DNA of 64,000 bases from Archangium gephyra (GTDB lineage: Bacteria; Myxococcota; Myxococcia; Myxococcales; Myxococcaceae), in assembly GCF_001027285.1 (NCBI RefSeq), contig NZ_CP011509.1, forward strand, positions 4,038,501 to 4,102,500. Direction: 5' to 3'. Within the stretch, counting starts at the first letter, position 1. The number at the start of each line of letters is the position of its first letter. The translations under genes were made by a program, and so were the position numbers. Positions 1-12,916 of the stretch are shown here, one piece after another. The notes beneath the pieces are model-generated. The model saw only the letters and a list, made by a program, of their open reading frames with translations. It did no database searches and was not told where the DNA came from.

Positions 1-53
1 TCCAGAGAACAGCATGGGGGTCTCCTGCGGATGGGTCTGGTGTGCAGCGGGCT

Positions 54-2297
54 TCAGGCGGCGGAGGTGCTCGGGGTCTTGTCAGCCGGCTGCTGGCCCT
101 GGAGTTGGGCGTGGATGAGCTGGGCGTAGAGGCCGCCGCGGGCCACGAGCTCGTGGTGCTTGCCCTGCTCGGCGAGCCGGCCCTTGTCCATCACGAGGAT
201 GAGGTCCGCGTTCATCACCGTGCTCAGCCGGTGGGCGATGACGATCCGGGTGCAGCGCAGGGAGGAGATCGACTCGAGCACCCGGGCCTCCGTCACGGCG
301 TCCAGCGCGCTCGTCGCCTCGTCCAGCAGCAGCATGGCGGGATTGCGCACCAGCGCCCGGGCCATTCCCAGCCGCTGCCGCTGCCCGCCCGACAGCTGCT
401 GTCCCTGGTTGGCCAGCGGCGTGTTGTAGCCGAGCGGCAGGGCGACGATGTCGTCGTGGAGCTGCGCCAGCCTCGCCGCCTGCTCCACGGCCTTCATCGG
501 AAGGTCTGGCTCGTCGAGGGTGATGTTGTCGCGCACGGTGCTGCCGAAGAAGGCGGGGTTCTGCAGCACCACCCCCATCTGACGGCGCACCGCATGCAGG
601 TCCAGGTCCACCAGGTTCGCTCCGTCGTAGCGCACGCAGCCGGAGGTGGGCAGGTACAGGCCGAGCAGGAGGTTGGCCAACGTGCTCTTTCCCGCGCCGG
701 ACCTGCCCACGATGGCCACCATGCTGCCGGGCTCGATGCGCACGGAGACGTCCTGCACCACCAGGGGCGTGTCGGGGGAGTAGCGGAAGCTCACCTGCTC
801 CAGCTCGCAGGCCCCGGTGAGGGTGGGGGCATGGCCCGACCTGTCCTTGGGCCGCTCGGGGGGCGTTTCCAGCACGTCCCGGAGCCGCTCCAGGTAGCTG
901 CCCATCTGTTGCAGCTGGCCCGCGGTGGCGACGAGGTTGGAGAGCGGCCCGAGCACCGAGGCGGCCAGGGCGTTGATGGCCAGCATCTGTCCGGTGCTCA
1001 GCTCCTGGTTCACCACCTGCCACGTGCCCAGCATCAGCAGCAACAGGGGAGAGCCCAGCCGCAGCGTGCTCGTCGCGCTCTCCACCCACACGCCCAGGAT
1101 CCCTCGCGCCAGCGACACGTTGAGCAGGTCCACGAAGAGGTTGGAGTACGTCTGGACCGAGCGCTCCTCCATCCCGAAGGCCTTGAGCGTCTGGATGCCC
1201 GAGAGCATCTCCATCTGGTACGTCGCGTTCTTGGCCTCCAGCTCCAGGCTCTGGGACAGCAGTTGCTGCTGCCGGTGGCGCGAGAGCAGGAAGACGAGCA
1301 CCTGCATCCCTCCGAGCGCCACCACCAGCAGTCCCATCGCGGGGCTGGTGGCGAAGAGGATGCTCAGGTAGAGCACCACCATGCCCCCGTCCAGCAGGGT
1401 GGAGAGGGTGCTCGAGGAGAGCAGATCCCTCATGCTGGTGTTCATGGACAGCCGCATCATCAGGTCGCCCGTGGGCCGCGACTGGAAGAAGGGGAAGGAG
1501 AGGCTGACCAGGTGCTCCAGGAAGCCGAGCGTCAGCTCGGAGTCCACGCGGATGCGCAGCGCGGTGATCAGGTAGCCGCGGATGAGCGACGCCAGGAACT
1601 GGAACACCACGATGGACATCATCCCCACGCCCGCCACCAGCAGCAGGTGCGTGTCCCCGCGCGGAATCACCTGGTCCACCAGCAGGCCCGTCAGCAGCGG
1701 CAGCGTCAGCGCGAAGAGCTGCACCAGCAGCGACAGCACGAGGATGCGGCGCAGCGCCACCGACTGTTTGAGCAGGGGGGCGACGTAGCGGCGCCAGTCC
1801 GTCCTGCGCGGCTGGCTCTTGACGAAGTCCTCCCCCGGCTCCAGCAGCAGCGCCACCCCGGTGAAGGACTGACGGAACTTCTCCATCGTCACCCGGCGCC
1901 GGCCCTGCGCGGGATCCACGATGTCCACGTAGTCCGAGCCCAGCCCCTCGAAGACGACGTAGTGGTTGAAGCGCCAGTGGAGGATGGTTCCGGTCTCCAC
2001 GAAGGGCAGCCGGTCCACGTCGATGGAGACGCCCCGGGCGCGCAGGCCGAAGCGCCGGGCCGCCGCCACCAGCGAGAAGGCCGTCGTGCCGTCGCGGGAC
2101 ACCCCCGTCACCTTGCGCACCTCCTCGAGCGTGACGTGCCGGCCGTGGTAGCCCAGCACCATCCCCAGGCAGGCGGCGCCGCAGTCCATGACCGTGAGCT
2201 GGCGGATCTCCTGCAGCCGCCTCGGGCGCAGCCGCCCCCACAGCCGGCGCAGCGCTGGAAAACGCTCGAGCAACGGGCGCTGCTTCTCAGCGGTCAT
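54..2297 (-). CDS. lanT: LanT-type peptidase-containing ABC exporter (C39 peptidase, TMD, NBD)
   Basis: A 747-residue bifunctional exporter that should cut the leader from the lanthipeptide precursor and pump the product across the inner membrane. The N-terminal C39 peptidase domain has Cys39 (in TVMDCGAAC), His112 (in RFNHYVVF) and Asp128 (in DIVDPA), the family's catalytic triad. A membrane domain spans about residues 175-460. The ATPase has Walker A GRSGAGKST (531-539), signature LSGGQ (635-639), Walker B LLLDE (656-660) and switch His689. The start ATG overlaps the end of the upstream HlyD gene by 11 bp, which implies translational coupling. It is the last gene of the operon. C39 enzymes cut after a double Gly, and the precursor at 7504-7731 has one. 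The peptide substrate is inferred from the cluster. Confidence 0.93.
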   Translation of the reverse strand: MTAEKQRPLLERFPALRRLWGRLRPRRLQEIRQLTVMDCGAACLGMVLGYHGRHVTLEEVRKVTGVSRDGTTAFSLVAAARRFGLRARGVSIDVDRLPFVETGTILHWRFNHYVVFEGLGSDYVDIVDPAQGRRRVTMEKFRQSFTGVALLLEPGEDFVKSQPRRTDWRRYVAPLLKQSVALRRILVLSLLVQLFALTLPLLTGLLVDQVIPRGDTHLLLVAGVGMMSIVVFQFLASLIRGYLITALRIRVDSELTLGFLEHLVSLSFPFFQSRPTGDLMMRLSMNTSMRDLLSSSTLSTLLDGGMVVLYLSILFATSPAMGLLVVALGGMQVLVFLLSRHRQQQLLSQSLELEAKNATYQMEMLSGIQTLKAFGMEERSVQTYSNLFVDLLNVSLARGILGVWVESATSTLRLGSPLLLLMLGTWQVVNQELSTGQMLAINALAASVLGPLSNLVATAGQLQQMGSYLERLRDVLETPPERPKDRSGHAPTLTGACELEQVSFRYSPDTPLVVQDVSVRIEPGSMVAIVGRSGAGKSTLANLLLGLYLPTSGCVRYDGANLVDLDLHAVRRQMGVVLQNPAFFGSTVRDNITLDEPDLPMKAVEQAARLAQLHDDIVALPLGYNTPLANQGQQLSGGQRQRLGMARALVRNPAMLLLDEATSALDAVTEARVLESISSLRCTRIVIAHRLSTVMNADLILVMDKGRLAEQGKHHELVARGGLYAQLIHAQLQGQQPADKTPSTSAA

Positions 2298-3231
2298 GAG
2301 CGAACAGTCCCTTCAAGGCGGGTACCAGGGTCAGCAGGATGCTCTCGGTGCGCACCCGGGCCTCGGCTCGGGCGGGCATTCCGTCGAAGTAGTGGTGGGG
2401 CTGGCCCTCGCGCTCGAAGCTCCGCGCGGGCAGCCGGGCGCGCACCAGGACGAAGGCGCCCTTGAACTCGAAGGCATCGGCCAGTCCCGGCCCCAGCGCG
2501 CGGCGCACCTCGTTGGGACCGATGATCTGATCTCCCACGTGCTCCACCGTCGCCTCGCGGTACTCGTAGCGGGAGCCGTCCAGCTCCACGCGCACCAGGG
2601 TGCCCGGCTTCAGGTAGGGGCGGTATTGGCCGGGCAGGAAGGCCAGCAGCACCGGCGAGGCATTGGCCGGGACGAGGGACAGCACGCTCACGCCGGCGGT
2701 GAGGTACTGGCCCGGCTGCACGCGCACGTCCGTGACGATGCCCTCGCTGGGGGCTCGCAGCGTCCGCGCCGCCACCCGGGCCTCGGCCAGCTCCTGCTCG
2801 GCGCGCAGCGAGGTGAGTGCCTGGCGGGCCGCGGCATCCGAGGGCTCCCTCAGGTAGCGCACCAGCTGCATCTCGAACTCATGGCGCAGCCGCTCCACCG
2901 TGGCGGCTTCCTCGAGGGAGACGAACGTGACCAGCTCCTGGCCCGCCCGCACCCGCTGGCCCATCTTCACTTCCACGGTGGAGACGAGCCCGGCGCCGTG
3001 GCTCGTCAGCTCCACCTTCCCCTCCAGCTGCACCACGGCCGGGCCGGAGGCGTACTCGTTGAGGTTGCCCACCACGCAGTAGAAGAACCCGGTGCACAAC
3101 ACGCCCAGCAACAGCCAGTACAGCCAGTTCGTCCACGCGGGCGAGATGTGGAGGATGTCTCCCTCCTCCCGCACGTTGCTGGCGTAGTGCTCGAGCGCTT
3201 CCTGGCGGTAGATGGAATTCTTGCCTTGCAC
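2287..3231 (-). CDS. HlyD-family secretion adaptor (short, peptide-export type)
   Basis: A 314-residue membrane-fusion protein. A short cytoplasmic N-terminus is followed by one membrane anchor (about residues 32-53, WTNWLYWLLLGVLCTGFF), then a lipoyl/biotinyl-like half (VSTVEVKMGQRVRAGQELV), a short helical hairpin, the second lipoyl half (LRAPSEGIVTDVRVQPGQYL) and a beta-barrel. It would link the C39 ABC exporter to the outer membrane. The start is GTG, with GGGAGC upstream. It lies 15 bp after another adaptor gene and overlaps the ABC gene. The overall shape resembles adaptors of peptidase-containing transporters rather than RND adaptors. No TolC-like gene is in the window, so the outer-membrane channel must be elsewhere. 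Confidence 0.85.
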   Translation of the reverse strand: MQGKNSIYRQEALEHYASNVREEGDILHISPAWTNWLYWLLLGVLCTGFFYCVVGNLNEYASGPAVVQLEGKVELTSHGAGLVSTVEVKMGQRVRAGQELVTFVSLEEAATVERLRHEFEMQLVRYLREPSDAAARQALTSLRAEQELAEARVAARTLRAPSEGIVTDVRVQPGQYLTAGVSVLSLVPANASPVLLAFLPGQYRPYLKPGTLVRVELDGSRYEYREATVEHVGDQIIGPNEVRRALGPGLADAFEFKGAFVLVRARLPARSFEREGQPHHYFDGMPARAEARVRTESILLTLVPALKGLFAHDR

Positions 3232-3246
3232 GCTGGTGCTCCCGCC

Positions 3247-4179
3247 CTAGGGGCTCACAGAGGAGGTCACCCGGGCTCCGGGCACCACCCACACCCGGAC
3301 GACGGTGCCCAGGGGCAGCCGCTGCCCGGGCCGCGCCGTCACGTTGGCGATGGCCAACACCATCCGCGAGGCGCTATCCACCTCGGGCGCCACGCTCTCC
3401 ACGACACCCTCGAGCCGCTCGGCGACCCCCTGGACCTCGAGCTGCACGGGGGTGCCCTCCGCGACCCCCGGGGCGTGCGCTTCGGGGATGGCGAAGCGCA
3501 CCTGCTGGGCACTGTCCGCCAGCAGGTGGAGCAGGGGGCGGCCGGTGCTCACCAGCGCGCCGGGGTCCAGGTAGCGCATGGACACGGTGCCGTCGACAGG
3601 GGCTCGCAAGGTGGCCTCGGACAGGCGCAGCCGCAGCTGCTCCACCCGGGACTGGTGGCTCTGCACCTGGGCCTTGGCGGCGGCGGCCTTCGCGGCGGCT
3701 GTCTTCTGCGCGAAGCGCAGCCGGGCCTGCTCCTCCTCGGACATGGCACCCAGGGCGGCCAGCTTCTCGTTGCCTCCGCGCTGCAGCGATTCCTCGGCCG
3801 ACAGGAGCGCCAGCTTCGCCACCTCCTCCTCGGCGTGCATGGCCTCCAGGTCCGCCTGGGCGATGGCCAGCTCGTGCTGGAGGGGCTGCACGTCGAGCCG
3901 GGCCAGCACGTCTCCCTTGCGCACCCGGCCACCCACCCGCACCGCCACGTGCTCCAGCCTCCCGTCGAACTTCGCCGAGATGTCCACGCTGCCGCCGGCG
4001 ACGATGACCCCGATGAAGCCGGGGCCCTCACCGGAGGGGGCCGGGCGGGCTTCCGCCAGAGGCAGCTCGGCGGGGACCGCGAGCGGCGGTGGGCTGGCCG
4101 GGGCACGGTGCACGAGCAACAGCCCCATGCCCGCCAGCAGCACGACTCCGGTTCCTACGATGACGAGTCGCTGAGACAT
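3247..4179 (-). CDS. HlyD/RND-type periplasmic adaptor subunit
   Basis: A 310-residue adaptor with an uncleaved signal anchor at residues 5-23, a Pro/Ala-rich linker, a first lipoyl half (RLEHVAVRVGGRVRKGDVLA), a long Ala/Glu/Gln-rich coiled-coil hairpin (about 105-185), the second lipoyl half (LRAPVDGTVSMRYLDPGALV) and a beta-barrel. Unlike its neighbour at 2287-3231 it looks like a classical efflux adaptor. It starts 10 bp after the lanM stop, so it is in the same operon. Two adaptors of different type in one lanthipeptide operon is uncommon. They may form a hetero-oligomer, or this one may serve another inner-membrane pump, for example in self-protection. That second role is inference. Confidence 0.82.
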   Translation of the reverse strand: MSQRLVIVGTGVVLLAGMGLLLVHRAPASPPPLAVPAELPLAEARPAPSGEGPGFIGVIVAGGSVDISAKFDGRLEHVAVRVGGRVRKGDVLARLDVQPLQHELAIAQADLEAMHAEEEVAKLALLSAEESLQRGGNEKLAALGAMSEEEQARLRFAQKTAAAKAAAAKAQVQSHQSRVEQLRLRLSEATLRAPVDGTVSMRYLDPGALVSTGRPLLHLLADSAQQVRFAIPEAHAPGVAEGTPVQLEVQGVAERLEGVVESVAPEVDSASRMVLAIANVTARPGQRLPLGTVVRVWVVPGARVTSSVSP

Positions 4180-4189
4180 CGCGCGTAGA

Positions 4190-7100
4190 TTATCGGATCG
4201 TTCCGACTGGAGCAGCCGGGGGTTCGAGCATCAGCACGCTCGGAACCCGCCCGGGCGCCGCGAAGCGCAGCAGGCCCCAGCCAATGCCCGCCAGGCCCGT
4301 CATCAATCCGGGGGTGTCCAGGCCGAGGGGGGTGGCGCAGCGCCAGGCGTGCTGCTCGGCCCGGGCGAGCAGGGAGCCCAGGGTGGCCTGGATGAAGGCG
4401 TCCGTTCCGTCGGGGGCTTCGCCGGCCGCCTGGGCGCTCACCAACACCTCCAGGTTGCCCATGTCTCCATGGCACAGCGAGTCATTGTGGCCGAAGCCGT
4501 GCTTCAACGTGCCGGCCACCGCCGCGCGGAGCTCCTCGCGGAGCTGGGGCGTATCGAGGTGGCGCAGCATGCGGGCCCGCGCCAGGCCGATGCCGGGAGC
4601 GCCATAGCACCACGCCTGGACGGACTGGGAGTGGGTGCGCGTGTCCTTCCAGTTGAGCTGCTCGGGGCTGAAGAGGGTGCGCTCGTAGGCGAGCGCCTCC
4701 TGGGCGGTCTCGGCGAAGCGCGGCTCGCCCGAGGCCGTGGCGAGCTCCAGCAGGGCCCACGCCATGCCCGAGGCCCCGTGGGAGAAGCCGCTGAGGGGCT
4801 GGGTGGACGGCACCGTCGTCATCCACCCGGCGCCCTGGGCCTGTGGCTGGCGCGTGGCCAGCAGCTGCTCGCCGCAGCTCACGGCCGCCGCCAGCGCGCG
4901 CGGGGAGCCCGTGGTGTGGTGCAGCGCGAGCAGCCCGCCAATGCAGCCGGCCGCACCGGCGATGATGTCCAGGTTGCGATCCTGCGCGATGAACGGCAGC
5001 AGCGGCTCGAGGTGCGACTCCGCCTCGGCCAGCAGCGCCGGCTCGTCGAGCAGCACGCCCAGGTGCGTCATCACGTAGAGGACACCGCCCCAGCCCTCGA
5101 AGCCGCCGAGCACCTTCATCCGGGTGCGAGAGCGCTCCGCGATCCGCCGCAGGCTGTCGCTGGCGTTGCGGGCCACGCGCGTGAAGCGCTCCTCGCCCGA
5201 GAGCCGGCCGAGCTGTGCCAGGAAGAGGGCCACGCCCGACATGCCGCCATAGAGGTCCAACGTCAGCGGGGAGAAGGACCAGCTCTGGAAGCTGTCCTGG
5301 CGCAGACCCATCCAGCCGAGCAGGCCCTCATCACTGGAAGCCAGGGTGAGGAGCCGGTCGCCCACGGCGCGAGCCGCCGCCATCAGCCGCGTGGGCTCCA
5401 CCGGTACCGGCTCCCGCCGCGGGGGCGGGGCGGGCTCCGGCGGCAGCTCGGGCAGCGAGGACACCAGGGACGAGCGGACCCACCAGAGGTGCCGCTCCAG
5501 GTCCGCCTCGCCCATGTCCCGCAGCCGCTGCTCGCACACCGCCATGCCGGTGCTCCACAGCGCGCCGGGGAACGTCCCGCCCGGCCCGCCGTCCAGGTCC
5601 GTCGAGTCGGGCCGCGTGGAGAAGCGGGGGATGTCGCCGCGGTGCAGGGCCGCGCGCTCCTCGGTGATGACACTCGCCAGGAAGGGCCGGCGCCGCATGC
5701 CCATCCACAGATTGTCGAAGTACTTCTCCCGCTCCAGTCCGTCGCGCAGCAGGTCCGGGTGGTAGCTCTCCTGGAGGAGCTTGTAATAGATCTGCGTCGA
5801 GCGCAGCAGCACGCGGATCTCCACCGGGAGGAAGCGCCGCAGGGGCCCCTCGGGCGCGAGCAGCGCGTCACGCTCCCGCTGCAGCAGCCGGTACATCTGC
5901 TCGAATCCCGCGCACAAGCTCTCCAGGTAGCGGCCTGGCTGGACCGGCTCACCGCGCACGGTGGGCATGTTGCGCGCGCCGTTCATCAGGATGCGCTTGC
6001 GGTACTGCCGCATGGTGTCCTCGCCCGTGTCCTCCCAATGAGGCACTTCGTGCGGGGTGAGCTTGCCCGCGGGCGAGCCCATTCCACCCACGTCCACGCC
6101 CTCGTTCTGCTCGGTGGCCCAGGCGCGCAGGGGCAGCATGGAGATGCGGCTGACGGAGTAGTCGATGATGCGGACGAAGAACTGCTCCTCCCGGGTGGGG
6201 AAGTTCATCCGGTCGCTGATCTGCGGGTGGAACAGCGTCTCGAGGTCCACCACCACCGGGTGCTCGCCCTCGGCGATGAGGTTCTCGAAGTGCATGTCCA
6301 TGCCTCCCACGTGGTGGAAGAGGCACAGCAGCGCGCCCATGCGCTGGTAGAACCGTTGGATGCCCTCCTCGGACTCGCATGGCCGGGCGTCCACGTACTC
6401 GCACCAGCCGTAGCCGTCGCGCGCCACCATCCGCAGCTGCCGGAAGGGGGGCAGCTCTCCCCGCTCGCCCAGCCAGGCCAGCAGCTCATGGAAGCGCTGG
6501 TCCACCCCGAACGAGCGGGGCTTGTAGACGAGCTTGCTGCCCGAGGAGAAGGTGAGCATGTGCACCGCGCGCCCGTTGTGGTGCTGGTCACCTGCCTGGC
6601 CGGAGAACTCCGTCAGGACGCCTGGGTCCGCGGGCAGCAGCGTCTCGCGCAGCGCCGGGCCATCCGCGGCCAGCCGGGTGGCCAGCTCCCTGCTGGTCTC
6701 CACCCACCGCTCGACGGCTTCCACGCACAGCCGCGCCAGCACGGGGTATTCCTCGAAGAGGCCGAGCGCGAACTTCGGCTCGCGCAGCAACGTGACGAAG
6801 CTGCGGAAGCGCTCCGGGCCCGTCTCTCCCTGGAGCTGGCCGCGCAGCCGGGCCACGTTCATCTCCAGCACCAGCGTGCGGTTGATCCGGTCCAGCAACC
6901 GCACCGGCAGCCCCGCGAAGAGCAGCGGCTCCAGCCGCTCCGGCTCGAACAGCAGCCCGGAGTGCGCGCGCGCCACTTCCTGGACGTGGGCCCGCACGCG
7001 AGCCCGGCCCTGCTCGATGAGCGGGCGTACCCACTCCAGGAATCCCACGGTGGCAACACCCTGGAGGTTCTTGGGGACGGGAAAGGGCTCGGAGGAGACC

Positions 7101-7402
7101 GGCTGGGAGAACGCTTCCTGGAGCGTCGTCAGCCAGGGGAGCCGGCCTCCCAGCCGCTGCTTCAGCTCCTCCAGGGGCTCGGTGAGCAGGGCGCCCAGCT
7201 GCGCCTCCGTCAGCCCTTCCGCCTCCAGCCGCCGCTCGAAGGCAATCACCGAGGTGAAGGGCTCCTTCGCGCGCCACGGCTCCAGCCGCCGTTGCACCTC
7301 CTCGGTGCTCGCGCCGCCCGCCGCTCTTCCTGGCCCCTGCTGCCTTTCTCGCAACCACACCGCACGGAACCACGCTGCCGATCCGAAGGAAGACTCAGTC
7401 AC
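4190..7402 (-). CDS. lanM: Class II lanthipeptide synthetase LanM
   Basis: A 1070-residue bifunctional enzyme. It phosphorylates and eliminates Ser/Thr in the precursor to give dehydroalanine/dehydrobutyrine, then adds Cys thiols to form (methyl)lanthionine rings. The N-terminal part is the DUF4135 dehydratase, with lipid-kinase-like motifs KLVYKPRS and HFENLIAEGEHPVVVDLET. The C-terminal part (from about 730) is the LanC-like cyclase: GFSHGASG, then the zinc ligands Cys932 (WCYGAPG), Cys977 and His978 (CHGDMG). All three ligands are present, so cyclase activity is expected with the ordinary Cys-Cys-His zinc site. Start is GTG with a GGAGA ribosome site, 101 bp after the precursor gene and beyond a terminator-like hairpin. 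Two adaptors and the exporter follow. Confidence 0.95.
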   Translation of the reverse strand: MTESSFGSAAWFRAVWLRERQQGPGRAAGGASTEEVQRRLEPWRAKEPFTSVIAFERRLEAEGLTEAQLGALLTEPLEELKQRLGGRLPWLTTLQEAFSQPVSSEPFPVPKNLQGVATVGFLEWVRPLIEQGRARVRAHVQEVARAHSGLLFEPERLEPLLFAGLPVRLLDRINRTLVLEMNVARLRGQLQGETGPERFRSFVTLLREPKFALGLFEEYPVLARLCVEAVERWVETSRELATRLAADGPALRETLLPADPGVLTEFSGQAGDQHHNGRAVHMLTFSSGSKLVYKPRSFGVDQRFHELLAWLGERGELPPFRQLRMVARDGYGWCEYVDARPCESEEGIQRFYQRMGALLCLFHHVGGMDMHFENLIAEGEHPVVVDLETLFHPQISDRMNFPTREEQFFVRIIDYSVSRISMLPLRAWATEQNEGVDVGGMGSPAGKLTPHEVPHWEDTGEDTMRQYRKRILMNGARNMPTVRGEPVQPGRYLESLCAGFEQMYRLLQRERDALLAPEGPLRRFLPVEIRVLLRSTQIYYKLLQESYHPDLLRDGLEREKYFDNLWMGMRRRPFLASVITEERAALHRGDIPRFSTRPDSTDLDGGPGGTFPGALWSTGMAVCEQRLRDMGEADLERHLWWVRSSLVSSLPELPPEPAPPPRREPVPVEPTRLMAAARAVGDRLLTLASSDEGLLGWMGLRQDSFQSWSFSPLTLDLYGGMSGVALFLAQLGRLSGEERFTRVARNASDSLRRIAERSRTRMKVLGGFEGWGGVLYVMTHLGVLLDEPALLAEAESHLEPLLPFIAQDRNLDIIAGAAGCIGGLLALHHTTGSPRALAAAVSCGEQLLATRQPQAQGAGWMTTVPSTQPLSGFSHGASGMAWALLELATASGEPRFAETAQEALAYERTLFSPEQLNWKDTRTHSQSVQAWCYGAPGIGLARARMLRHLDTPQLREELRAAVAGTLKHGFGHNDSLCHGDMGNLEVLVSAQAAGEAPDGTDAFIQATLGSLLARAEQHAWRCATPLGLDTPGLMTGLAGIGWGLLRFAAPGRVPSVLMLEPPAAPVGTIR

Positions 7403-7429
7403 GATGTGTGTCTCCGCGGGGGAGAGGGC

Positions 7430-7474
7430 AAAAACACTCGCGCGCCGCAGCCTGGATTGGGCATGCGGCGCGCG
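7430..7474 (-). terminator. Attenuator/terminator hairpin between lanA and lanM
   Basis: A perfect 11-bp inverted repeat, CGCGCGCCGCA (7439-7449) and TGCGGCGCGCG (7464-7474), with a 14-nt loop. Read on the minus strand it is followed after four bases by five T (A-run at 7430-7434). This is a rho-independent terminator by form. It sits between precursor and synthetase, where partial termination would give much more precursor than enzyme, as is known in other lantibiotic operons. Confidence 0.75.
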
Positions 7475-7503
7475 GGAGATGCTACTTCATGTCTGCGAAA
7501 GGC

Positions 7504-7731
7504 TTAGCAGCAGGCCGTCGCCGTCGTGGAGTAGGTGCAGCAGGACGTCTTGGTGACCGACACGTCGATGTCGACCGCCTCCGCGTAACCACCGGCAACT
7601 CCCTCGAGGTCCGAATCGGTCAACTCGACCATGCCGGCCGGGTTCTGCGGCAGCTGGGCGCGCTCCTCGGTGGTCAGGCTCATGCGGTACTGCTCATCCT
7701 TCCACGCGCGAACCACATCGATGTTGCTCAT
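7504..7731 (-). CDS. lanA: Class II lanthipeptide precursor, mersacidin/lichenicidin-like
   Basis: A 75-residue precursor. The leader begins MSNIDVVRAWKDEQYRMSL and has the conserved set of the TIGR03898-type family as I recall it (VRAWKD, YRMSL, LPQNPAG, VELTDSDLEGV). It ends in a double-Gly site, VAGG at residues 45-48. The 27-residue core starts YAEAVDIDVSV and ends TKTSCCTYSTTATACC. It holds four Cys as two CC pairs (core positions 16-17 and 26-27) and nine Ser/Thr, so up to four rings are possible. The ATG at 7731 has GAGGAG just upstream; longer in-frame extensions upstream lack the leader logic. lanM, adaptors and the C39 exporter follow on the same strand. Bioactivity is unknown. Confidence 0.93.
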   Translation of the reverse strand: MSNIDVVRAWKDEQYRMSLTTEERAQLPQNPAGMVELTDSDLEGVAGGYAEAVDIDVSVTKTSCCTYSTTATACC

Positions 7732-7822
7732 GATCAGCTCCTCAAGGGGGGGTGGATACGGGTAAAACGGGTGCAGCTCGCAATCACCGGCTAACTGAAT
7801 AAGTCCGAACCGGCTGAAAATC

Positions 7823-7850
7823 ACTATAGACCTTCTAATCCCGTCGTCAA
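7823..7850 (-). promoter_or_regulatory. Sigma-70-type promoter of the lanthipeptide operon
   Basis: On the minus strand TTGACG (7845-7850) and TATAGT (7823-7828) are separated by 16 bp, each a 5/6 match to consensus. Transcription would start near 7816 and give a leader of about 85 nt before the lanA ATG. It is one of the best consensus promoters in this GC-rich window. Confidence 0.72.
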
Positions 7851-7993
7851 GCACCCCCCCTGGCTGTCGGCGCGGGTTTTCCGCGGGCGGAGGGGGAGCA
7901 GGTGCGCACGGGTAGGGATTGCCGTGACCGGGAGCATCAGGGCGTCTGGCGAATATGCTGGAGTTCGAATCCCCGGAGTGGAGCCCCGCACCC

Positions 7994-9655
7994 ATGGAGA
8001 GCCCCTTGCGCATCGCACTGCCTTTCGAGCCTCGCCAGCACCTGGCGTCCGAGAATCCATCGGGCTTCCACATCGTCAACGCCGAGTTCCTCCATGCGCT
8101 GGCGCGCCACGGCCGCTCGGGTGAGTTGTTGCTGCTGGCGGCCAGGGCGAACGCGGCTCCTCCCGGGCTCGGAGGAGAGGGCGCGCTCAAGCAGACCCGG
8201 GTGCTCGACATCCTGGAGCTCGTGCGTCAGCCGCAGCCGCCGCCGGTCGATCTCCTGCATGATCTCTCATGCCAGGTGGATCGCGCCCTCACCGTGCGAG
8301 GCCACTGGAATGGGCCGGCCTTTCCCCTCACGTTCGTCAGCCACGGCCTGGTCCTCCAGCTCTCCCTTCGCGCGTTGGCGTACCCGCTCCTGCTCGGCGG
8401 CATCCAGCCGTTCGATTCGTTGATCTGCATCTCCCATGGCATCAAGCGCGGACTGGAGCGGTTGCTCGACTCGGCGGCCGAGTCCTTTGCACGGGTGGCG
8501 GGGGCGGACGCCCCGCGGTTGCGCTACCGGGGCCGCCTCGACGTCATCCATTGGGCGGTGGACTCCGAGCGCTTCGGCTCGGTGGCCCGGAGCGAGGCCC
8601 GCGCCGCCCTGGGCATTCCCCAGGACGCCTTCGTCCTGCTCTCCATCGGCCGCATCTCGCCGTTCAGCAAGGGGGACCTGCTGCCGTTGCTCGGGCTGTT
8701 CCGCGACCTGCGCGCGAGCAACCCCGAGCGCAAGCTCCGCCTCGTCATCGCCGGCTCGGTGGATGTGCAGTCCTACAACACCGTGCTCCAGGGCCATGCC
8801 AGGTCGCTGGGGGTGACCGAGCACGTGCAGTGGCTCGGCGGCGTCGAGCCCTCGCGGCGGCACCTCGTGCATGCGGCGGCGGATGTCTTCGTCAGCCTGA
8901 ACGACGCGACGGGCGAGGGCTTCGGGCTCACACCGCTGGAGGCCCTGGCGAGTGGTGTGCCCCAGGTCGTATCGGACTGGGATGGCATGCGGGAGATGCT
9001 GGTCCATGGAGAGACGGGCTTCCTGGTGCCCACGGTCTGGGCCAATTGCGACGACGAGCTCATCCTGCATGGGCTGGTCGGCGGTCAGACACACCGCGAC
9101 CTCTGGACGGCGCAGTCGATCGCCACGGACATGACCGCGATGCGGCGGTCGCTCCAGGCCCTCATCGACAGCCCGGAGTTGCGTGCGCGGATGGGGGAGG
9201 CCTCCCGGCTCCGGGCCGCCCGGCTGTTCTCGTGGAAGGAGATCATCCGGCAGTACGAGGAACTGTGGCAGGAGCTCGCTGGCCTGGCGCGGGCAGCCCC
9301 GCCCGCTCGTGCGCAGATGCTCCCAGAGGCCATCCACGGCGTCCTGGGCCACTACGCGGCGGAGCAGCTCGAGCCCTCCACGCCGCTGAAGCTCACGGAG
9401 GCGGGCTCGCGCCTGCTCACCCAGGGCGAGTTCGTTCCTCTCTACGGCCAGCCGCCCCCGGTGGAGCCGGAGCGCGTCGTGGCGCTGCTGGGAGCGCTGA
9501 GCGCCCGGAATGGAGGGCCGTGCACGCTCGCGACGCTCGAGCAGGACACGCTCGCCACCTGGGGCTCGGGCCACACCTGGTTCCTGCGCCATGTGCTGTG
9601 GCTGCTCAAGTTCGGGCTCCTCGAGGTGGAGCGTCCACTCCCTGGAGTGGGCTGA
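7994..9655 (+). CDS. GT4-like glycosyltransferase with C-terminal extension (copy 1)
   Basis: A 553-residue cytoplasmic GT-B glycosyltransferase. The N-terminal acceptor half begins MESPLRIALPFEPRQHLAS. The C-terminal sugar-nucleotide half has VLLSIGRISPFSKGD, LRLVIAGSVD, VQWLGGVEPS and the EGFGLTPLEALASGVPQV loop typical of GT4 retaining enzymes. From about residue 445 comes a roughly 110-residue tail (TPLKLTEAGSRLL, then LRHVLWLLKFGLLEVE) that I do not recognise; it is helical and could be winged-helix-like. The ATG at 7994 is chosen over an upstream in-frame ATG at 7955 because the next gene starts at the same residue with a similar GGAG site. It is divergent from the lanthipeptide operon. 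Donor and acceptor sugars are unknown. Confidence 0.85.
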   Translation: MESPLRIALPFEPRQHLASENPSGFHIVNAEFLHALARHGRSGELLLLAARANAAPPGLGGEGALKQTRVLDILELVRQPQPPPVDLLHDLSCQVDRALTVRGHWNGPAFPLTFVSHGLVLQLSLRALAYPLLLGGIQPFDSLICISHGIKRGLERLLDSAAESFARVAGADAPRLRYRGRLDVIHWAVDSERFGSVARSEARAALGIPQDAFVLLSIGRISPFSKGDLLPLLGLFRDLRASNPERKLRLVIAGSVDVQSYNTVLQGHARSLGVTEHVQWLGGVEPSRRHLVHAAADVFVSLNDATGEGFGLTPLEALASGVPQVVSDWDGMREMLVHGETGFLVPTVWANCDDELILHGLVGGQTHRDLWTAQSIATDMTAMRRSLQALIDSPELRARMGEASRLRAARLFSWKEIIRQYEELWQELAGLARAAPPARAQMLPEAIHGVLGHYAAEQLEPSTPLKLTEAGSRLLTQGEFVPLYGQPPPVEPERVVALLGALSARNGGPCTLATLEQDTLATWGSGHTWFLRHVLWLLKFGLLEVERPLPGVG

Positions 9656-9719
9656 GCAGGCCGGAAGCCGCTGAAGGTCCGTCCGCTCGAATCACCATCC
9701 CAGCCTGGAGGCCCGCACC

Positions 9720-11375
9720 ATGGAGAGTCCCCTGCACATCGCACTGCCCTTCGAGCCTCGCCAGCACCTGGCGTCCGAGAGTCCGTCGGGTTTCCACATC
9801 GTCAACGCCGAGTTCCTCCACGCGCTGGCGCGCCATGGCCGCTCGGGAGAGCTGTTGTTGCTGGCGGCGAGGGCGAACGCGGCTCCTCCCGGGCTCGGAG
9901 GGGAGGGCGCGCTCAAGCAGACCCGGGTGCTCGACATCCTGGAGCTCGTGCGCCAGCCGCGGCGGCCGGACGTCGGGGTCCTGCATGATCTCTCGTGTCT
10001 GGTGGGCCGGGCCCTCTCCGTGCGCGGCTATTGGGAGCGGCCGGCCTTTCCCGTCACGTTCGTCAGCCATGGACTGGTCCTCCCCACGTCCGTGCGTACG
10101 CTGGCGTTCCCGCTCCTGGCCGGCGGCATCCAGCCGTTCGACTCGATGATCTGCATCTCCCACAGCCTGAAGCGCGCGTTCGAGCGGCTGCTCGACGCGA
10201 CCGCCGAGTCCATCGCGAGCGCGGCGGGCCCGGATGCCCCGCGGTTGCGTTACCGGGGCCGCCTCGACGTCATCCACTGGGGCGTGGACTCCGAGCGCTT
10301 CGGCTCGGTGGCCCGGAGCGAGGCCCGCGACGCCCTGGGCATTCCCCAGGACGCCTTCGTCCTGCTCTCCATCGGCCGTGTGTCGCCCATCAGCAAGGGG
10401 GACGTGCTGCCGCTGCTCGGGCTGTTCCGCGATCTGCGCGCGAGCAATCCCGAGCGCAATCTGCGGCTCGTCATCGCCGGCCCGGTGGATGTGCAGTCCT
10501 ACAACACCGTGCTCCAGGGCCATGCCAGGACACTGGGCGTGACCGAGCACATCCAGTGGCTGGGTGGCGTCGAGCCCTCGCGGCGGCACCTCGTGCATGC
10601 GGCGGCGGATGTCTTCGTTGCCCTGAACGACTCGACGGGTGAGGGGTTCGGGCTCACGCCGCTGGAGGCGATGGCGAGCGGTGTGCCCCAGGTCGTATCG
10701 GACTGGGATGGACTGCGGGACACCGTGGTTCATGGAGAGACGGGCTTCCTGGTGCCCACGGTCTGGGCGGATTGCGACGACGAGCTCATCCTGGATGGCC
10801 TGGTCGGCGGCTCCGCACATCGCGACCTCTGGACGGCGCAGTCGATCGCCACGGACATGACCGCGATGCGGCGGTCGCTCCAGGCCCTCATCGGCAGCCC
10901 GGAGTTGTGCGCGCGGATGGGCGAGGCCTCCCGGCTCCGGGCCTCCCGGATGTTCTCGTGGAAGGATGTCATCCGGCGCTACGAGGAGCTGTGGCAGGAG
11001 CTCGCTGGCCTGGCGCGGACCTCCCCGTCCACCCGTGCACACGTGCTCCCAGAGGGCAACCACAACATCCTGGGCCACTACGCGGCGGAGCAGCTCGAGC
11101 CCTCCACACCGCTGAAGCTCACGGAGGCGGGCTCGCGCCTGCTCACCCAGGGCGAGTTCGTCCCTCTCTACGGCCAGCCACCCGCGGTGGAGCCGGAGCG
11201 CGTCGTGGCGTTGCTGGGCGCGTTGGGGGCCCGGGGGGGAGGGCCGTGCACGCTCGCGACGCTCGAGCAGGACACGCTCGCCACCTGGGGCACGGGCCGC
11301 ACCCGGTTCCTGCGCCATGTGTTGTGGCTGCTCAAGTTCGGGCTCCTCGAGGTGGAGCGTCCTCTTCCCGGATAG
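9720..11375 (+). CDS. GT4-like glycosyltransferase with C-terminal extension (copy 2, tandem duplicate)
   Basis: A 551-residue protein, nearly collinear with the gene just upstream and very similar along its whole length by eye, including the unusual C-terminal tail. GT-B motifs are intact: VLLSIGRVSPISKGD, LRLVIAGPVD, EGFGLTPLEAMASGVPQV. Differences cluster around residues 80-150 (RRPDVGVLHD against QPPPVDLLHD, and PTSVRTLAF against QLSLRALAY), in the half that normally binds the acceptor, while the nucleotide half is almost unchanged. That pattern suits a recent duplication with a changing acceptor and the same donor. The gene lies 64 bp after copy 1 and is followed 20 bp later by a third glycosyltransferase, so one operon is likely. 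Confidence 0.85.
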   Translation: MESPLHIALPFEPRQHLASESPSGFHIVNAEFLHALARHGRSGELLLLAARANAAPPGLGGEGALKQTRVLDILELVRQPRRPDVGVLHDLSCLVGRALSVRGYWERPAFPVTFVSHGLVLPTSVRTLAFPLLAGGIQPFDSMICISHSLKRAFERLLDATAESIASAAGPDAPRLRYRGRLDVIHWGVDSERFGSVARSEARDALGIPQDAFVLLSIGRVSPISKGDVLPLLGLFRDLRASNPERNLRLVIAGPVDVQSYNTVLQGHARTLGVTEHIQWLGGVEPSRRHLVHAAADVFVALNDSTGEGFGLTPLEAMASGVPQVVSDWDGLRDTVVHGETGFLVPTVWADCDDELILDGLVGGSAHRDLWTAQSIATDMTAMRRSLQALIGSPELCARMGEASRLRASRMFSWKDVIRRYEELWQELAGLARTSPSTRAHVLPEGNHNILGHYAAEQLEPSTPLKLTEAGSRLLTQGEFVPLYGQPPAVEPERVVALLGALGARGGGPCTLATLEQDTLATWGTGRTRFLRHVLWLLKFGLLEVERPLPG

Positions 11376-11395
11376 CGCGTTCAGGGAACGTGAAC

Positions 11396-12679
11396 ATGCC
11401 GAGAGAACTCCTCGAGTCCCCCCACGTCATCGTCATCACGAGCGAATACGGGAGCATGCGGATTGGCGGCGTGGGGACCTACACGAACATGCTCGTGGAC
11501 TACCTGCGCCGCGGGTTCGCGCGGCTCCATGTGGTCGAGATCCCCAACTCGAACAGGGATCCCGTCTCGGTGCGCGAGGGGCCGTTGGGCGAGCGGATCC
11601 TTCGCGCTCCCTATCCCCGCTTCCAGACCCGGCTGGACATCGATTACGACCCGAAGCTGGAAGCGCTCTACCGGTTGCTCCCGATGGACGAGCCCCTGCT
11701 CATCTTCGGGAATGACTCCTACGGCACCTACGTGGGGGAGCGGATCCGCGCGGCGGCCAGGAACAGGGCGTGCCTGGTCCATGTCCCGCATCTGTTCGCG
11801 TCGCTCTCGCACTTCAATGGCTATGGCGGAGAACGTTTCGGGGAGCTGCTGCGGACGGCTCCTCCGCGGATCCTCCCCTTCATCCAGAAAGACGTCGAGA
11901 TGCTGAGCAGGGCGGACTTCGTGCTGTTCGTCAGCCAGTACATGCTCGCGTACGCCAGCCAGTACCTGGGAGGAGCACCGGAGCGGTACGGCATCGTCGG
12001 GCACTACGTCGAAGCGCCCCCGGTGGTGAAGGAGCACTATTCGGACGAGGTGCGCAACGTCATCTTCATGGGCCGGTTGGAGTCCCTCAAGGGGCTCCAC
12101 GAGCTTTTCGAGCACCTGGAAGACGTGATGCGGTGCCTGCCCAGGGCGACCTTCCACATCTACGGCATGGGGTCGCTGAGGGACGTGCTGAAGTGGCGCG
12201 GCCGGCGCTTCGGTGACCGGCTGGTGTGGTACGGGTACAGACCGCGTGAGGAGGTGCTGCGGGTATTGCCGGAGATGGACCTGGCCATCATCCCCTCGCT
12301 CTGCGAGTCATTCGGCTACTCGGCCCTGGAGGCCATGGCCGCTGGCGTGCCGCTCATCGCCAGTGATGTGGGCGGGCTGGGGGAGCTGACGGCCTGGCTG
12401 CCGGAAGGGCTGCGTCTGCGCACGGCCGTGGGGGGCAATCCCCTCTTCGATGACGTCAAGGAGATTGGCATCACCCTCCCACGCGAGGAGCTCGTGCGCG
12501 TCCTCACCTACGCGGCGGCCCACCCGGAGGTGCTCGCGGCAACGGGAAGGCAGGGCGCCGTGCTGGCGCGAGAGCAGCACGGTGCTGGGAACTACACCCA
12601 ACGGATGGACGAGTTCCTCGACAGGACACTCCAGTGGCTCGCGAATGGAGTGCCCTCCAAGACCACGACTGGCGGGTGA
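11396..12679 (+). CDS. GT4-family glycosyltransferase
   Basis: A 427-residue GT-B enzyme of a different subfamily from the two upstream copies. The N-terminus HVIVITSEYGSMRIGGVGTY has the Gly-rich loop seen in glycogen-synthase-like and GT4 enzymes. The C-terminal half has NVIFMGRLESLKGLHELF, FHIYGMGS, LVWYGYRPREEVL and PSLCESFGYSALEAMAAG, with the donor-binding Glu region intact. The ATG at 11396 follows AGGGA at suitable spacing; an in-frame GTG six bases upstream is an alternative. It lies 20 bp after the second duplicate glycosyltransferase. It could extend a glycan started by its neighbours, but the product is not deducible from sequence. Confidence 0.85.
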   Translation: MPRELLESPHVIVITSEYGSMRIGGVGTYTNMLVDYLRRGFARLHVVEIPNSNRDPVSVREGPLGERILRAPYPRFQTRLDIDYDPKLEALYRLLPMDEPLLIFGNDSYGTYVGERIRAAARNRACLVHVPHLFASLSHFNGYGGERFGELLRTAPPRILPFIQKDVEMLSRADFVLFVSQYMLAYASQYLGGAPERYGIVGHYVEAPPVVKEHYSDEVRNVIFMGRLESLKGLHELFEHLEDVMRCLPRATFHIYGMGSLRDVLKWRGRRFGDRLVWYGYRPREEVLRVLPEMDLAIIPSLCESFGYSALEAMAAGVPLIASDVGGLGELTAWLPEGLRLRTAVGGNPLFDDVKEIGITLPREELVRVLTYAAAHPEVLAATGRQGAVLAREQHGAGNYTQRMDEFLDRTLQWLANGVPSKTTTGG

Positions 12680-12697
12680 CGCTGGGAAGGGGCGCGC

Positions 12698-12916
12698 TCA
12701 GCAGCGTCCGAGCTTCAGCTCGCGCTCGGCCTGGGCCCAGTCCTGCTCGTGCTGACCGTGGCCGCCGCCGCGAGCGAGGAACAGCTCATAGGCGCGGCGG
12801 GCGATCTGCTCATGGGTGGGCTGGGTGCGGTTGGAGGCCGCGGCATTGCGAGCCGGGTTCTCCGGCATCTGCTGGGCCGGAGTGGGGTGGGACGTCTTGG
12901 CGTGCGTACGTGCCAT
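12698..12916 (-). CDS. Small DUF2934 protein
   Basis: A 72-residue protein. A basic, disordered N-terminus (MARTHAKTSHPTPAQQ) precedes a short conserved helical segment, PTHEQIARRAYELFLARGG then HEQDWAQAERELK, which matches the DUF2934 pattern (IA.RAYELF..RG..HG...DW..AE.EL). The function of this family is not known. The ATG at 12916 has GGAGGAG just upstream, a much better start than longer in-frame extensions. It converges on the glycosyltransferase gene with 18 bp between stops. Confidence 0.8.
   Translation of the reverse strand: MARTHAKTSHPTPAQQMPENPARNAAASNRTQPTHEQIARRAYELFLARGGGHGQHEQDWAQAERELKLGRC

Follow-up and report, generated by a model that had tools for sequence, protein, structure and literature searches.

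We describe here a gene cluster of Archangium gephyra that is very probably a working operon, lanA-lanM-hlyDa-hlyDb-lanT-mbl, for the synthesis and export of a class II lanthipeptide, carried on a horizontally moving genomic island. It lies at the edge of a stretch of 64,000 nucleotides (G000:C1:4038501-4102500, hereafter the window) in a genome that consists of one contig of 12,489,432 bases, and its first five genes are intact open reading frames (ORFs) that run in the same direction on the minus strand between window positions 54 and 7731. An earlier note on this DNA had read these five genes as a complete class II lanthipeptide system. The class is borne out by the domains of the synthetase LanM, by matches to the models TIGR03897 and TIGR03898 and by intact catalytic and zinc-binding residues. 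Completeness is reached only once a sixth gene is counted, which encodes a metallo-beta-lactamase (MBL)-fold protein and starts at window position 15, 38 nt past the lanT stop codon and thus outside the five-gene stretch. As read from the sequence, the cluster is sound and intact, and it is probably active.

The precursor LanA, MSNIDVVRAWKDEQYRMSLTTEERAQLPQNPAGMVELTDSDLEGVAGG (leader) followed by YAEAVDIDVSVTKTSCCTYSTTATACC (core), is exactly as first noticed, i.e., 75 residues with a mersacidin-type leader, a GG site and a core of 27 residues that contains two CC pairs and nine Ser/Thr. Such CC pairs have precedents in lacticin 481, nukacin and plantaricin C, and overlapping rings are a plausible consequence. 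The precursor matches TIGR03898, the mersacidin/lichenicidin family, with 73 bits (E 1.2e-20; cut-off 23.5), and it has Asp at -8, Leu at -7 and the GG site in front of a core rich in Ser, Thr and Cys, in line with the class II leader motif of D/E at -8, L/M at -7 and GG (PMC7268733). LanM reaches 942 bits against TIGR03897 (cut-off 304), and its nearest solved LanM relative is LicM2 (PDB 6st5, E 3e-116). Its dehydratase residues D272, H274, K294, H371, N374 and D386 and all the zinc ligands of the cyclase (C932, C977 and H978), the latter already reported from the letters alone, are invariant or nearly so among 48 aligned LanMs.

The predicted export genes, two HlyD adaptors and a C39-peptidase ABC exporter in one direction, could likewise be verified by Pfam domains and ORF positions, and LanT shows the C39-site residues Cys, His, Asp and Gln in its sequence. 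The genes are tightly spaced, with 10 nt between lanM and hlyDa, 15 nt between hlyDa and hlyDb and an overlap of 11 nt between the end of hlyDb and the start of lanT. Adaptors of type b accompany the same type of exporter in the genomes G003 and G039, in the second LanM cluster of the A. gephyra genome and in class I clusters.

Another species of the same genus (G003) has counterparts of all five genes, arranged in identical order, at 60-77% protein identity (tblastn). This recurrence of the complete set across species makes it more than a chance assembly. The LanA orthologue of G003 is 77-78% identical, and the alignment of the two cores (VDIDVSVTKTSCCTYSTTATACC in the window vs IDVDVSVGKTSCCTYSTAATACCPSST in G003) shows that all four Cys and seven Ser/Thr (S10, T14, S15, T18, S20, T21 and T24) are kept. 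The remaining T12 and T22 are not conserved and therefore unlikely to be needed for rings. In a tree of LanM proteins, the window protein and that of G003 form a pair with support of 100 inside a loosely resolved group of other clusters, and G039 shares the gene order but has an unrelated core.

The cluster is present in 2 of 6 congeners searched, and a search with the whole precursor in 195 genomes of the phylum returned only G003 as matching through the core at high identity. When named genomes were scanned with the precursor alignment, one match came up, in Ktedonobacteria bacterium brp13, which covered the leader only, and there was no core match; a search of plasmids gave leader matches only, again with no core match; and a scan of named genomes with the single LanM protein gave no usable match. 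The description of the system as apparently undescribed thus stands insofar as the core was found in no searched genome or plasmid beyond one congener and no paper describing it came to light, which falls short of proof. The peptide looks like a new compound sequence of a kind that is itself ordinary. With this distinct core, so far seen in two related species, it joins the few known myxobacterial lanthipeptides, and its genes are ready to be expressed in a heterologous host. The leader found in Ktedonobacteria bacterium brp13 (L202, AP024096.1) is 62% identical to that of the window precursor, hinting that this leader type moves widely.

The mobility of the cluster itself can be read from its surroundings. 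The gene to its left is 89-95% conserved in five other congeners, and the distance from the end of this gene to the gene at window position 12702 is merely 10, 79 and 120 bp in G003, G004 and G005, compared to ca. 14.1 kb in the A. gephyra genome. The cluster copy of G003 resides at a different chromosomal place from this insertion site, and it is these empty sites in congeners together with the different location in G003 that indicate mobility. The insertion carries mbl, lanT, both hlyD genes, lanM, lanA and two tandem glycosyltransferase genes (Table 1). Its GC content equals that of its flanks, its ends showed no direct repeats and only one inverted match of 10 nt, and no integrase was recognized on it.

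Table 1. Features of the lanthipeptide locus and dispersed precursor genes. Positions refer to the window unless a genome or locus is named.
Feature	Position	Strand	Description
lanA	7504..7731	-	75-aa precursor; leader 1-48 ending VAGG, core 49-75; TIGR03898
lanM	4190..7402	-	1070-aa class II lanthipeptide synthetase; TIGR03897, DUF4135 + LANC_like
hlyDa (HlyD-family adaptor a)	3247..4179	-	310 aa; HlyD_3, HlyD_D23; TIGR01730 above cut-off
hlyDb (HlyD-family adaptor b)	2287..3231	-	314 aa; HlyD_3
lanT (C39-peptidase ABC exporter)	54..2297	-	747 aa; Peptidase_C39 + ABC_membrane + ABC_tran
mbl (sixth operon gene), first codons	1..15	-	480-aa metallo-beta-lactamase-fold protein, continues beyond window edge (whole gene G000:C1:4037073-4038515 = L069:1573-3015)
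Sigma-70-like promoter TTGACG-N16-TATAGT	7823..7850	-	upstream of lanA
Terminator/attenuator-like hairpin	7439..7474	-	14-bp, GC-rich, then T5 (7430-7434); between lanA and lanM
Two tandem GT4-type glycosyltransferase genes	7955-9655 and 9720-11375	+	Pfam; divergent from lanA
Insertion, in-window part	1..12701		of ~14.1 kb total (about -1410 to 12701), with a conserved gene on either side
Dispersed precursors	G000:C1:11399344 (L071), 11861249 (L072); L078-L086, L091-L097, L099-L107, L161-L165, L040, L057

The claim that all genes are under one good promoter held only in part. The promoter itself is good, being the only match in 8.3 kb where 0.2 would be expected from shuffles, and G003 has TTGACA and TATATC with a spacer of 20 nt in the corresponding region. 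However, lanA is followed by a conserved terminator-like hairpin, and the downstream genes are probably transcribed via read-through only. The fold of this hairpin has a z-score of -4.4 vs shuffles, and an equivalent hairpin of different sequence with a T-run is found in G003 (z -3.8), while most other clusters that we examined have no comparable T-run. The hairpin looks like a terminator with read-through, at which most transcripts from the lanA promoter would stop, with read-through supplying the enzymes. Since most transcripts would end there, the precursor may be made in excess over the enzymes.

Through the sixth gene, a CmlA-like protein of the MBL fold becomes associated with the export modules of class I as well as class II lanthipeptides, a pairing that none of the papers we found mentions. 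The protein matches PF12706, PF13483 and PF00753 of Pfam, and its only relative in the PDB is CmlA (E 1.4e-7), to which it aligns across the HxHxDH and GE motifs. Its metal motif reads HxHxDH ... GE ... D, with motif 2 carrying Glu in place of His and with the Asp motif retained. This motif is conserved in 12 relatives, with variation at the presumed last metal-ligand position (PYAH/PYAN). A His-to-Glu exchange at motif 2 is found in flavo-diiron proteins, and CmlA is listed among the iron-dependent MBL oxidoreductases (PMC7785958). The GE motif also occurs in a paralogue that is present once in most of these genomes. Since common paralogues carry it, the CmlA-like motif is weakened as proof of tailoring and speaks for some kind of iron enzyme rather than for a tailoring enzyme specifically.

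The mbl orthologue of G003 is 68% identical and located beside the cluster, divergent and upstream, and more distant relatives (35-46%) adjoin a C39-peptidase ABC exporter gene in nine further genomes, in most of them together with HlyD genes. In eight of these nine (L177, L178, L180-L183, L185 and L187) the MBL gene is on the same strand and directly after the exporter gene, or overlapping it as called, and in the ninth (L179) the two are divergent. Neighbors of these pairs include class I LanB and LanC genes, so that the HlyD-C39ABC-MBL module is common to class I clusters and the class II cluster of the window. The MBL relatives at L184 and L186 have no such exporter nearby, the former being accompanied by a LanB. 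Small ORFs with GG leaders are also seen near the MBL-exporter pairs, and the class I precursors end in VVGGT or similar.

Most likely, the MBL protein would act on the peptide or protect the producer. By analogy to the iron-using motif of CmlA, an oxidative tailoring step is the first possibility that we would consider, though at well below even odds. It is rather unlikely that the protein represents a new kind of lanthipeptide-tailoring enzyme, an iron oxygenase that class I and class II clusters of this bacterial family have in common through their HlyD-C39ABC-MBL module, in which case the window product would be oxidized (e.g., hydroxylated) and carry two vicinal-Cys ring pairs. That the protein is instead a hydrolase, or a passenger that has nothing to do with the peptide, has a chance not far below even, given that MBL folds are mostly hydrolases, that the widespread paralogue shares the GE motif and that the L070 and L112 clusters are devoid of mbl. 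This alternative is at odds with the finding that mbl follows or adjoins this type of exporter in lanthipeptide clusters of both classes (I and II) and in several genera.

Among known systems, lichenicidin (LicM2) and mersacidin share with the cluster the leader family TIGR03898 and the LanM family, but the core is unlike both, with no CTxTxEC lipid II motif, and the cluster has one precursor, one LanM, a Gram-negative-type exporter and two HlyD adaptors. The shorter TxTxEC lipid II-binding motif is equally absent from the core, which contains no Glu-Cys, and only the leader belongs to the mersacidin family. A two-component class II lantibiotic was rejected, as the island has one precursor and one LanM and the other LanM is more than 4 Mb away. 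The plantaricin C/lacticin 481 group resembles the system in the CC pair of its core and in modification by LanM, but the window precursor scores 22.5 against the plantaricin C model NF000539, below the cut-off of 29, and its core has two CC pairs. On plasmid A of Trichormus variabilis ATCC 29413 (NC_007410), a LanM of 39.5% identity lies together with a C39-peptidase ABC exporter, a mersacidin/lichenicidin-type precursor and HlyD. The leader there is 59% identical to that of the window, but the core differs (CTTCGNPLHTPIIKCKPVFGALEDISV), there is one HlyD, and no MBL gene of the window type is annotated beside the cluster.

Among myxobacteria, class II lanthipeptides are already known with myxococin and LanII-2B. 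LanII-2B from Archangium violaceum, called the first characterized deltaproteobacterial lanthipeptide, was made in E. coli and has two rings and weak activity (PMC9576775). It shares with the window system a class II precursor with LanM and probably the genus, but is set apart by the stated counts of three Cys and four Ser/Thr in its core vs four and nine. Myxococin from Myxococcus fulvus (Wang et al. 2023, cited in PMC11251773) is reportedly the product of a class II LanM with several overlapping rings, and boletupeptin is another myxobacterial lanthipeptide (PMC12328550). A myxococin-type cluster was rejected for the window, as its island has no separate LanC and the other LANC_like genes of the genome are megabases away. 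The myxococin system reportedly relies on an additional stand-alone LanC cyclase and an M61 peptidase. An arrangement resembling it was seen elsewhere (L121, G059:C1:3515000-3533000), where a LanM occurs with a separate LanC-like gene and with the HlyDa-HlyDb-C39ABC module that the window also has; no mersacidin-type leader was found at that locus.

Beyond gene content, active sites, orthology, hairpin and insertion, which are all observed, we infer each catalytic step of the following pathway. Given the intact active sites, LanM would bind the leader, dehydrate Ser/Thr of the core, with the seven residues conserved in G003 as candidates, and close four (methyl)lanthionine rings by addition of the four Cys. 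The unmodified core has a calculated [M+H]+ of 2806.193, which each dehydration would lower by 18.011. During export, LanT would then cleave after VAGG with its C39 domain, while the ABC exporter carries the peptide of 27 residues across the inner membrane and the two HlyD adaptors pass it on with an outer-membrane protein encoded elsewhere in the genome. The MBL protein would perhaps oxidize the peptide.

Several points weigh against a functional operon of this kind. No dedicated immunity gene was recognized in profile and domain scans of the cluster. The exporter scores under the curated cut-off of the NHLM exporter model, with 629 bits vs 853 required by TIGR03796; we rejected an NHLM/NHLP export system on this basis and on the scores of the HlyD proteins (TIGR03794, 41-44 vs 156 bits) and of the NHLP leader (25 vs 51 bits). 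The dN/dS between window and G003 is below 0.6 for each of the five proteins, but by a simple counting method that is unreliable in a genome of 70% GC. The core alone (27 codons) gives dN 0.24 and dS 0.19, an uninformative result with no synonymous excess, so that it is the conserved Cys pattern that argues for selection on the core, in a comparison that involves one orthologue only. A decaying or silent cluster that keeps its frames open with no production could explain why merely those two congeners carry it, and silent clusters are generally common in myxobacterial cultures. We nevertheless regard it as very improbable because all frames are open, the catalytic residues are intact and the orthologous operon keeps both the Cys of the core and the hairpin after lanA.

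For the product of a functional operon, we see an even chance that it is an antibacterial peptide directed against competitors or prey. A signal or developmental peptide exported by an equally intact cluster for cell-cell communication in predation or fruiting appears less probable, though it would suit a core with no TxTxEC motif and a cluster with no recognizable immunity genes, and myxococin is reported for anti-inflammatory activity in a title cited in PMC11251773. A conserved developmental signal would be expected less than a weapon or an accessory trait to have such a patchy distribution and to lie on an island. It is improbable that the glycosyltransferases belong to the system, which would make the product a glycosylated lanthipeptide. 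They are part of the insertion that also holds the operon, and in G042 a relative has an MBL gene at a distance of ca. 5 kb and a LanB gene at 12 kb, but they are encoded on the divergent strand, absent from the orthologous cluster of G003 and nearly absent from the family, with relatives in 3 of 58 genomes. We have thus set them aside as tailoring genes for not being conserved with the cluster. The two are 86% identical to each other, a recent duplication that among congeners is confined to this insertion.

Mersacidin-type leaders also occur far from any synthetase gene. TIGR03898 has 5, 13, 14 and 10 matches in G000, G002, G003 and G006, many with no LanM nearby, and about three dozen such precursor genes are scattered with no neighboring LanM across this genus and its relatives (Table 1). 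Of 36 dispersed precursors, 35 have leaders most similar to those encoded beside the LanM clade of G000:C1:8176221 and one is closest to another local group. With none closest to the window-like group, a prochlorosin-like role was rejected for the LanM of the window. By hand count, 10 of the 11 genomes that have the other clade contain dispersed precursors, vs about 1 of the 25 genomes whose LanMs do not include that clade (Fisher p 5e-7, or 1e-5 with two doubtful cases added, values that overstate independence because the genomes are related). G005 is a counter-example with a dispersed precursor but no LanM of that clade. The dispersed genes are surrounded by unrelated genes, in several cases at the same positions between species; no shared promoter was found for them, and a ribosome-binding-site-like motif is present at 29 of 33. 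Their arrangement with the other LanM clade resembles the one-enzyme-many-substrates principle of prochlorosins and is probably more interesting than the window cluster itself: if confirmed, it would extend to bacteria other than cyanobacteria the principle of a single synthetase that acts on many substrates encoded far away. Many of the dispersed precursors (L071, L072, L080, L092, L093, L096, L097, L099, L107 and L163) have a motif like SAxDxCPSxxxC in otherwise different cores, which suggests one common ring or function. At L098 (G002:C1:5428000-5446500), one LanM is accompanied by four different local precursors within 10 kb.

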